In this document: positions 20,344 to 23,134 of the stretch, piece after piece
How positions within the stretch are numbered: the stretch's first letter is position 1
How the letters are laid out: each line of letters starts with the position of its first letter
Source of the DNA: Desulfurococcales archaeon
Lineage (GTDB): Archaea > Thermoproteota > Thermoprotei_A > Sulfolobales > AG1
NCBI GenBank assembly: GCA_015521765.1
Contig: WANO01000075.1
Location: 1 to 41,936 of the forward strand
Length of the DNA: 41,936 nucleotides
Direction of reading: 5' to 3'
Notes under the pieces: model-generated
Database searches by the model: none
What the model was told of the DNA's origin: nothing
The model's input: the letters and a program-made list of their open reading frames with translations, nothing else
Position numbers and translations under genes: made by a program

Positions 20344-20470
20344 TGCCGGCCCGGCCATAGCGGCTGGGCAACACCCGGACTCATATCGAACCCGGAAGTT
20401 AAGCCAGCCGCGTTGGGTGTGGCCGTGAGGTCCGCAAGGACTCGCAGCCCACCCAAGCCGGGACCGGCAT
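20344..20470 (+). rRNA. rrf: 5S ribosomal RNA
   Basis: Near-universal 5S blocks are present: GGGCAACACCCGGACTCAT, TCGAACCCGGAAGTTAAGC and the AAGCCGGGA loop E/helix region. The ends pair, TGCCGG at 20344-20349 with CCGGCA at 20464-20469. It is a separate gene, not linked to 16S or 23S, as in Crenarchaeota. A T-rich run follows directly. Confidence 0.96.
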
Positions 20471-20515: not shown

Positions 20516-21160
20516 CTAGATGCGGAATCCATATTTCTTATCCAGGGATTTGAGTGCGTTTGTTCTGGTGTATCTTCTATATATTATGGCTAGGTTTATT
20601 ACTAGGAGAGCTAACGAGATCGATATAAACACGTATCTATAGGCAAATAGAACCGATGATATAAACGTATTTACCGAGCCCAACATTAGTATTAGCAGAT
20701 TAAGTATTATGCCGGGGCCGCAGCAGCTGAATGCTGCAAATAGGGAGGGGGCTACAGTGGCTAGAGATAATCCAGTGGACTTTTTCAGCGAGAATCCGCA
20801 GCAGCTATTCATTTTCCTGTCTAGAAGTAGTGCAGCTATATTTAGGGAAAACAGCATTGACAATGCTAGGGTTGTCAGCATCGCCTCTAGATTGGCTGAG
20901 ATAACTATATTTGGTGTAAGATAGATTATGATCCATGGGACCTGGCCTATGGGCCCGCTAAGAAAAACCTGGATTGATGGTGTTTCTATATAGGGTGGTA
21001 GTGGGGATGTAGAAATAACTATCATACCTATAGATAATGCATAAATGAATATGAAAAGTAGCACCAATATAGGGATATAGACTCTTACGGGGCTTCTATA
21101 CATTATAAAGTAGAGGAAATATAAAAAACCAAGTATTGTTGCTTTAGCTATATCTATCAC
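20516..21160 (-). CDS. Membrane protein with paired-cysteine CCG motifs
   Basis: Unknown integral membrane protein of 214 residues with about six helices. Two cysteine pairs are seen: SCCGF at 119-123 in a loop and SCCGPGI at 145-151 at the start of a helix. The second resembles paired cysteines in helices of metal or thiol membrane proteins such as MerT, but there is no clear homology by eye. Downstream helices are plain hydrophobic. The start codon at 21160 is 16 bases after the stop of a 37-residue His/Cys-rich miniprotein, so the two are probably co-transcribed. Base composition is A/T-richer than most of the window. A role in metal uptake, export or thiol chemistry is inference. Confidence 0.7.
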   Translation of the reverse strand: MIDIAKATILGFLYFLYFIMYRSPVRVYIPILVLLFIFIYALSIGMIVISTSPLPPYIETPSIQVFLSGPIGQVPWIIIYLTPNIVISANLEAMLTTLALSMLFSLNIAALLLDRKMNSCCGFSLKKSTGLSLATVAPSLFAAFSCCGPGIILNLLILMLGSVNTFISSVLFAYRYVFISISLALLVINLAIIYRRYTRTNALKSLDKKYGFRI

Positions 21161-21176
21161 CCATCAAGCAATTTAT

Positions 21177-21290
21177 CTAGCAGCATGAATGATGATGCTC
21201 ATGCCCATGCTTATGATGCTCCTTAACGTGCTTCTCATACTCTTCCTTAGACTTAAACTTCATACCGCAACACTCGTATTCCTCTGGCAT
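21177..21290 (-). CDS. 37-residue His/Cys-rich miniprotein (zinc-finger-like)
   Basis: Short open frame reading MPEEYECCGMKFKSKEEYEK at the start, then residues 21-37 with His21, His25, His26, His28, His30, His32-34 and a final Cys-Cys. The first two thirds resemble a C2H2 finger (aromatic, cysteines, aromatic, 12 residues, H-x3-H) but the two cysteines (7 and 8) are adjacent, so the usual CxxC spacing is missing. Eight histidines and four cysteines in 37 residues suggest metal binding. A ribosome-binding site GGTGGG (21294-21299, minus strand) sits four bases before the ATG, strong support for translation. It precedes the CCG-motif membrane protein by 16 bases. Confidence 0.72.
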   Translation of the reverse strand: MPEEYECCGMKFKSKEEYEKHVKEHHKHGHEHHHSCC

Positions 21291-21440
21291 AATCCCACCA
21301 TGATCATATAGCCACATATACTTTTATCTTTTGGAAGAAATTGACTAATATTTTTATTCTCATGAAAAGAAAATATAGGACACAGCTATTTTTACATCAT
21401 TCTATTTAGAGTATTTTGAAACCATTATATGGGTCTCTAG

Positions 21441-22142
21441 ATGAAGAAGTCGAGAACTAAGAAATCTAGGAGGCCTAGAAGTAAAGTAAGAAGTAAAGTG
21501 AGATATCACATCTTAATTTCTATAGTTGCAGCAACGGCTATATTAGTTGCTTTATTATACTTGGGGAACATCATAAATATCGATGTAGATACTCAAAAAA
21601 GTACTGAAATCAAGACAGCCAACACTATATCAACCAATGACGCATCTATTCCCTATGAAGGCTTCATGGCTCCAGAATTCACTGTATCAACTATAGACGG
21701 TGATCAAGTTAGCCTAAAAGATTTTCGAGGCAAAACCGTGGTCATATGGTTCATGGCAGCATGGTGTCCATCATGCACGTTTATGGGATTTAATATAGAG
21801 AGGCTCTATAACGAATACAGAGATAGAAATATAGAAATCATAGTTATAGACATGTGGTCTGAAACCCTACTAAAGAAATGGGGAATTCTAGGAAAGGCTC
21901 CCCCACCAGAAAGCCCCGAAATACTTAGAGAATTCATAGTCCAATACAGCAATAGTCTCTCATGGCGCCTGATATTCGACTCCGACGCCTATCTAACTGA
22001 GCTATACGAAATTAAGGCTGTTGACTCGATATTTATAGTAGATCCATCAGGCAAAATAGCATTTAGAAGCGATGGACCGACAAGCTACGATATACTATCC
22101 AGGGTAATGAGCGAGATATATGGCCAGTCTAACCCAACCTGA
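21441..22142 (+). CDS. Membrane-anchored thioredoxin-fold protein (TlpA/ResA-like)
   Basis: Extracytoplasmic thiol-disulfide protein, 233 residues. A very basic N-terminus (about 1-22) and one membrane helix (about 23-43) leave the thioredoxin domain outside. The domain starts APEFTVSTIDGDQVSLKDFRGKTVVI and has the active site WCPSC (Cys109, Cys112). The usual cis-proline before the fourth strand is not visible: the matching segment reads KAVDSIFIVDPSGK. The gene is richer in A-ending codons (AGA, ATA) than its neighbours. It diverges from the miniprotein operon by 150 bases and its 3' end overlaps the convergent HTH-TRASH regulator by 14 bases. Probably part of a metal/thiol system. Confidence 0.85.
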   Translation: MKKSRTKKSRRPRSKVRSKVRYHILISIVAATAILVALLYLGNIINIDVDTQKSTEIKTANTISTNDASIPYEGFMAPEFTVSTIDGDQVSLKDFRGKTVVIWFMAAWCPSCTFMGFNIERLYNEYRDRNIEIIVIDMWSETLLKKWGILGKAPPPESPEILREFIVQYSNSLSWRLIFDSDAYLTELYEIKAVDSIFIVDPSGKIAFRSDGPTSYDILSRVMSEIYGQSNPT

Positions 22143-22752
22143 TCATTCTGAAATAGGCTTCAGCACACTTCTCGTTGTGGAACACAAGCGTCTTTCCATG
22201 GATCTCGACTATATACGGTTTACCCACTATAGGTGCCTTACAGAATGCACATATATAGTTTATATTAACAACCGTGGCCTGGCTAGGAATCCACTGGGAA
22301 TCCTTAAGAACTCTATCTATAGTGATGATATCGACACCAGCCCCAAGACCCTTCTCCTCAACAAGCTTAAACACCTTATCTATATCCCTCAGGTCGAGAA
22401 CCTTCATAACTATATATGCTGTCTTCCTATTATCAGAATAATAGAACTTCTCAACACCACTTAAAGTCTCCTCAAATACTCTATATAGGGTATATGGATC
22501 ATCTGTTTTAACACTAACTATCGCTGTAGAAGCATTGAAAGAGTCGGAGTTGACCTTAGCTTTACAGCCCTCCAACACTCCTGAGGCCTCGAGCCTCTTG
22601 ATCCTCTTACGCACTACGGGAACACTGACTCCGAGCCTCTTAGCGATCTCCTTGGTTGTGGTTCTACAGTCCTCGCTAAGTATCCTCAAAATCTCTATAT
22701 CTATCGCATCTAGATACTTCCTCAGCCTCTTCAAACATATATACCCGGACAC
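22129..22752 (-). CDS. Lrp/AsnC-type HTH regulator with C-terminal TRASH metal-sensing domain
   Basis: Transcription regulator of 207 residues. Residues about 13-60 form an AsnC-type winged helix (DAIDIEILRILSEDCRTTTK, then AKRLGVSVPVVRKRIKRLE). A middle domain of about 70-155 follows, and the C-terminus has a TRASH domain with Cys168, Cys171 and Cys196 in the pattern C-x2-C...HNEKCAEAYF. This architecture is that of the Sulfolobus copper regulator CopT/CopR. The start is GTG at 22752. It overlaps the convergent thioredoxin-fold gene, and likely targets are that gene and the CCG-protein operon nearby; no copper ATPase is adjacent here, so the metal is uncertain. Confidence 0.87.
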   Translation of the reverse strand: MSGYICLKRLRKYLDAIDIEILRILSEDCRTTTKEIAKRLGVSVPVVRKRIKRLEASGVLEGCKAKVNSDSFNASTAIVSVKTDDPYTLYRVFEETLSGVEKFYYSDNRKTAYIVMKVLDLRDIDKVFKLVEEKGLGAGVDIITIDRVLKDSQWIPSQATVVNINYICAFCKAPIVGKPYIVEIHGKTLVFHNEKCAEAYFRMIRLG

Positions 22753-22831: not shown

Positions 22832-23134
22832 CTAGGGCTTTTCACGTATCTTCTCAGAATATATGGTTTTAATATACAGCTCTGACTCGCACTTGGGGCA
22901 TGATTTGTTAGCTATGACTTTCCCCACGTAGTCCCCGGGAACAAACTCCCTCCTCTCCTCATGATCGTTGTTTACGCACGAAATCACGGTATATGTATTC
23001 ACCTTCTCCCTCACAGGTTTTGTTCGCTGCTGCATAACGTTAAGTATGGTTGAGATCGCGAAAAGGATAAGTAGCATTATTAGGGTTATTGTGAATATAT
23101 CGATCTGGAAACCTATAAATCCATCGTTAACCAT
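22832..23134 (-). CDS. Small membrane protein with zinc-ribbon-like tail
   Basis: Unknown protein of 100 residues. One hydrophobic helix at about 12-33 is followed by a soluble domain with a lone Cys near 53 and a CPKC knuckle near 83-86 (NKSCPKCESELYI). A complete four-cysteine ribbon is not obvious, though Cys53 and His58 could contribute. The ATG at 23134 lies two bases after the DUF1512 stop codon, so the two are almost certainly one operon. The link suggests a shared membrane function, not yet known. Confidence 0.7.
   Translation of the reverse strand: MVNDGFIGFQIDIFTITLIMLLILFAISTILNVMQQRTKPVREKVNTYTVISCVNNDHEERREFVPGDYVGKVIANKSCPKCESELYIKTIYSEKIREKP

Follow-up and report, generated by a model that had tools for sequence, protein, structure and literature searches.

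Reviews of mer operons list HMA domains, TRASH/MerH proteins and Mer transporters as the parts that handle Hg(II) (PMC3466566, PMC8261052, PMC4500099). NmerA and MerP are small Hg(II)-binding units that feed MerA; they have the HMA fold with a GMxCxxC motif, and are either a covalent part of bacterial MerA or periplasmic. MerH, known from Sulfolobales mer operons, is a Cys-rich peptide of 48–80 aa encoded beside merA and proposed to function in Hg trafficking (PMC4500099, PMC3466566). According to a 2012 survey, archaeal mer operons often consist of merA alone, with arsR and a TRASH protein present in Sulfolobus, and archaea lack mer transporters except for one Ferroplasma merP (PMC3466566). 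The origin of MerA itself is thought to lie among thermophilic archaea (PMC8261052).

We analyzed a 41,936-nt stretch of DNA from a Desulfurococcales archaeon (the window), in which a gene for a very short His/Cys-rich peptide is followed by a membrane protein gene and is divergent from a thioredoxin-like gene. The features of this region are:

20516..21160, minus strand: CCG membrane protein of 214 aa, possibly MerT-like, with two CCG motifs; GTG start 16 nt after the peptide stop
21177..21290, minus strand: peptide gene including stop; predicted one-finger protein (C-C-x12-H-x3-H) with a His-rich tail and terminal SCC
21291..21340, minus strand: leader with Shine-Dalgarno-like GGTGGG before the ATG; further upstream an A+T-rich, TATA-like aaaagtatat
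21441..22142, plus strand: TlpA-like thioredoxin with a membrane anchor and AWCPSC, transcribed divergently from the peptide gene
22129..22752, minus strand: Lrp/AsnC-type HTH regulator with a C-terminal Cys-rich TRASH-type domain (C168-x2-C171 ... C196)

Immediately past the 3′ end of the CCG membrane protein gene lies a 5S rRNA gene in the other orientation (20347–20466, plus strand; RF00001, 58.7 bits). Positions 22832–23134 (minus strand), flanked by the genes for the Lrp-TRASH regulator and a DUF1512 protein, encode a 100-aa protein that has a membrane segment at its N-terminus, a C-terminal CPKC motif and no family match over cut-off.

The peptide gene runs from 21290 to 21177 on the minus strand and encodes MPEEYECCGMKFKSKEEYEKHVKEHHKHGHEHHHSCC, a 37-aa product with 8 His and 4 Cys. 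The original prediction gave these counts correctly, without the strand; a plus-strand reading of 21177–21290 was rejected, as it meets a stop within the first codons. The ribosome-binding site it had proposed can be read directly as GGTGGG immediately 5′ of the ATG (ggtgggattATG). There is an alternative in-frame ATG upstream, at 21317, but the start at 21290 is preferred because both the homologues and the Shine-Dalgarno site favor it. The TATA-like stretch farther upstream may mark a promoter.

Searches returned 14 further homologues, all in Thermoproteota, two of which share the adjacent-cysteine core of the window copy. The alignment holds 14 distinct sequences including the window copy, as the copy in genome G534 is identical to that in G071. 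Weak matches (E > 1e-3) were regarded as generic archaeal C2H2 proteins and left out of the homologue count, and the matches in G110, G145 and G152 have neither a His tail nor mer neighbors. The check for synonymous bias that had been suggested for this gene gave a pooled pS of 0.58 vs. a pN of 0.06 over six gene pairs (the Fisher P for so few pairs is merely indicative); for the window gene and one Thermoproteaceae gene, the values were 0.97 and 0.04. Purifying selection on the peptide gene is thus strong, and together with the homologues it settles that the 37-aa frame is a genuine coding gene. Since the His tail is written as a run of CAT codons, one could suspect a spurious frame in CAT-rich, low-complexity DNA, but we give this practically no chance. 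Besides the conservation, 60 dinucleotide-preserving shuffles of the window yielded no frame of 25–70 aa with at least 8 His and at least 4 Cys, and just one of the 60 contained the C..C-x12-H-x3-H pattern; archaeal Shine-Dalgarno sequences (aGGTGa) also precede the start codons of several homologues. The peptide has no match among Pfam and NCBIfam models, and searches of viral contigs and plasmids returned no relative, and thus no sign of viral or plasmid carriage.

Eight positions are invariant in the alignment, including both core cysteines, a phenylalanine and three helix histidines; F12, H21 and H25 are unchanged in all 14 rows. Eleven homologues retain C-x2-C-x12-H-x3-H, whereas C-C-x12-H-x3-H, with the two knuckle residues lost, is seen in the window copy and in two from Thermoproteaceae. 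The window peptide therefore shares the x12 spacing, the H-x3-H and the conserved Phe of classical C2H2 fingers and archaeal one-finger micro-proteins, but has CC in place of the classical C-x2(-4)-C knuckle. The family profile matches solved C2H2 fingers, and AlphaFold2, run on the family alignment, modeled strands at residues 5–7 and 10–12 and a helix at 15–29 (mean pLDDT 78.7, about 91 over residues 11–20). A Foldseek search with the 37-aa model gave no significant E-values, the chain being very short. The peptide is thus predicted to be a one-finger C2H2-type protein with a beta-beta-alpha fold whose CxxC knuckle is reduced to CC, in keeping with the zinc-finger-like core with adjacent cysteines described originally. 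Zn(II) is the usual ligand of C2H2 fingers, and a structural role is possible for the finger core here. The finger is followed by a His-rich tail of variable length, which in only some homologues ends in CC (window, G533) or SC (G092, G442). The sequence contains no hydrophobic segment, so the product is probably cytosolic.

The tail, the terminal CC and the mer neighborhood described below set the peptide apart from classical C2H2 fingers, as does the absence of a Pfam or NCBIfam match. Its resemblance to MerH lies in being a small Cys-rich peptide encoded beside merA, and 9 of 25 MerH sequences likewise end in CC; however, MerH has the TRASH fold (C-x2-C ... FCC..C) and no His-rich tail, and the TRASH signature C-x2-C ... 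YFCC..C does not occur in the peptide. Neither an HMA domain match (Pfam PF00403) nor its GMxCxxC motif was found in the peptide. Being C2H2-related without CxxC, and neither TRASH nor HMA, it is best classed as a C2H2-type, mer-associated and probably Hg(II)-handling peptide. Searches of the open-licence literature brought up no mer system with a C2H2 peptide, and an earlier mention may exist elsewhere.

As originally described, the peptide gene directly precedes the gene for the membrane protein with two CCG motifs, and the 16-nt spacing suggests that both are probably on one transcript. In ten aligned CCG membrane proteins (the window copy and nine others, all nine from MerA loci), Cys146-Cys147-Gly148 and Gly150 are invariant. 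It resembles MerT in being a membrane protein with two adjacent cysteines inside a hydrophobic stretch, although it is larger (about 200 aa), has more hydrophobic segments and carries a CCGxG motif. The Pfam MerT model matched at E = 0.012 (16.1 bits, under the curated cut-off of 32.9), and a weak profile match (hhalign probability 28.9) placed its CC in register with that of MerT TM1, which is only suggestive of MerT identity.

The decisive context for a link to mercury is a locus in G458 (L162), where the peptide gene is divergent from genes for an Lrp-TRASH regulator, a TlpA-like protein, a CCG membrane protein and MerA, i.e., the four parts seen in the window plus MerA. Two Thermoproteaceae MAGs (L026, L027) encode ArsR divergently from a run of peptide, MerA, CCG membrane protein with a C-terminal HMA domain, and TlpA-like protein; their peptides have the CC core and are 76–83% identical to the window copy. 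The peptide gene also runs divergently from merA in four further genomes: G071, G533 and G534, which have merB alongside (the G071 copy matches Pfam MerB at 1e-10), and G531, where MerH is present as well. MerA is thereby next to the peptide in seven genomes. The MerAs of these loci exceed the TIGR02053 cut-off and end in vicinal CC, and the MerAs read in this analysis start directly at the flavin domain, i.e., they lack the NmerA chaperone domain. In G534 (L160, 6354–9269), the merA adjacent to the peptide gene is interrupted by a transposase gene, and an intact MerA is encoded elsewhere in the genome. The original prediction lacked this mercury-resistance context and named Cu, Zn, Ni and Hg as candidate metals; since MerA, in some cases together with MerB, is encoded in homologous clusters, mercury is the likely one.

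As an independent check, we gathered MerA loci with a MerA model alone and scanned them with profiles of the window's proteins; loci used for profile building were not counted as independent, because the profiles rest on few same-cluster sequences. Homologues of the CCG membrane protein, the TlpA-like protein and the Lrp-TRASH regulator recur at these loci (L108, L110, L129, L134, L136 and others), and all three occur together in G242, G159 and G182. The TlpA-like homologues adjoin MerA in several families. Lrp-TRASH homologues also lie beside MerA, and one of them (L129) scores just under the Arc_trans_TRASH cut-off. In the host, MerA (494 bits) is encoded on a different contig (C38) from the window, with a TlpA-like gene beside it. 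A more extensive mer and metal cluster in G004, from the host's family (L022, 6151–11538), encodes MerA, a CCG membrane protein, a TlpA-like protein, a second CC membrane protein, a CopZ-like protein (zf_CopZ, BFD [2Fe-2S] and HMA) and an Lrp-TRASH regulator.

Co-occurrence points the same way. MerA is encoded in 12 of the 13 peptide-bearing genomes from the order of the host, vs. 45 of 214 overall (hypergeometric P = 2e-8), the exception being G473, a 64% complete MAG. As genomes are not independent, the count was repeated by genus (7 of 8 with the peptide vs. 20 of 78; P = 2e-4); among genomes at least 90% complete, it was 8 of 8 vs. 36 of 118 (P = 4e-5). Direct adjacency to MerA occurs in four independent lineages (G458; Thermoproteaceae; G071/G533/G534; G531), for which a rough estimate of the chance probability is 2e-7. 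The association with mer is therefore well supported, and the peptide is probably a component of mer clusters.

It is accessory rather than core, since it adjoins MerA in only 7 of the 62 archaeal MerA loci examined, and was found neither in G004 nor in G001, an incomplete MAG from the host's genus. MerH, identified separately through its TRASH pattern at MerA loci, is present in 25 of the 62, and one of those 25 loci also has the peptide. MerH genes lie directly upstream of merA in, e.g., L104, L111 and L131. The refuting condition set originally was a lack of conservation of the short frame in relatives that keep the membrane protein: both are retained in G458 and the two Thermoproteaceae, but G004 keeps the membrane protein without the peptide.

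In six MerA-bearing genomes (G074, G029, G086, G092, G442, G461) the peptide gene is not near merA, and some copies away from mer genes adjoin CcdA-thioredoxin or MFS genes. Such copies, the 6–15 His per peptide and the HMA P-type ATPase genes in the G071 and G533 peptide clusters would suit a general Zn, Ni, Co or Cu buffer acting through its polyHis tail, with proximity to mer genes reflecting metal-stress islands and not mercury as such. We regard this as quite unlikely given the MerA co-occurrence and the adjacency in independent lineages. Unlinked copies could also be explained if the peptide were a regulatory finger, i.e., a nucleic-acid- or protein-binding factor that senses Zn or Hg and tunes the mer genes, at the level of transcription or translation, or a wider regulon. 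The C2H2 fold itself, inferred from profile and prediction, is compatible with this, as are the best profile matches, which are DNA-binding fingers, with archaeal ribosome-associated C2H2 proteins matching as well (6skg_Bo, 9qf4_Bk); moreover, the gene is often divergently transcribed beside mer promoters. However, this is a single short finger without basic linkers, its knuckle has been lost from the copies in the window and in Thermoproteaceae, the tail with its histidines and terminal CC appears better suited to metal capture, and the clusters already contain Lrp-TRASH or ArsR regulators. A regulatory function is therefore unlikely.

The original prediction raised, as one hypothesis, a metallochaperone that delivers metal to the membrane protein next to it. 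The metal-handling context, with mercury as the likely metal, partly supports this, but not in the proposed direction. Mer transporters bring Hg(II) into the cell, where MerA is the consumer; with the peptide adjoining MerA in seven genomes, hand-over to the membrane protein is unsupported, and MerA is the likelier recipient. Donation to the CCG protein for export, which the probable common transcript and the CC motifs of both proteins might suggest, thus seems very improbable: the commonest partner of the peptide is a cytosolic consumer, the weak similarity of the CCG protein is to an importer (MerT), and no CCG homologue was found near the peptide and MerA of G531.

We consider it probable, with moderate confidence, that the peptide is a genuine part of a thermoproteotal mer cluster and functions as a small cytosolic Hg(II)-binding buffer or relay, in which a C2H2 finger with a His-rich, CC-ended tail feeds MerA. 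It carries two pairs of adjacent thiols and numerous imidazoles, and in the fullest clusters its gene lies between those for the putative membrane entry point and for MerA. These thiols and imidazoles would catch Hg(II) that comes in via the CCG (MerT-like) membrane protein or is freed from cellular thiols. The bound Hg(II) would be buffered and then handed on by thiol exchange to the CC at the C-terminus of MerA, for reduction to Hg(0). The peptide would thereby serve in trans, with an unrelated fold, the function that NmerA has within many bacterial MerAs and that is proposed for MerH in Sulfolobales. The Lrp-TRASH protein may be the metal-responsive regulator of the cluster, and the TlpA-like thioredoxin may keep extracytoplasmic or membrane thiols reduced. 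A terminal CC is found in only about 4 of 540 neighboring non-Mer ORFs (unfiltered MerAs removed), and its presence in MerA, nine MerH and the window peptide fits a shared hand-over chemistry. More tentatively, evolution may have turned a C2H2 scaffold, its CxxC collapsed to CC, into a dedicated Hg(II) relay for MerA, a possible third solution beside HMA (NmerA/MerP) and TRASH (MerH).

The loci described here suggest a fuller archaeal mer cluster with a CCG membrane protein, a TlpA-like thioredoxin, an Lrp-TRASH regulator and a C2H2 peptide, which, if MerA did originate in thermophilic archaea, bears on the early parts of Hg trafficking. The peptide also offers a very small system for asking directly if zinc fingers can turn into Hg chaperones.

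Such a relay finger may be embedded in other cluster proteins too. In the f25 genomes G242 and G159, the TlpA-like protein of the mer cluster has an N-terminal C2H2 finger before its membrane anchor (L129, 2489–3199, and L134, 2500–3216, both minus strand), possibly a fused counterpart of the peptide, although C2H2 fingers are common in archaea.
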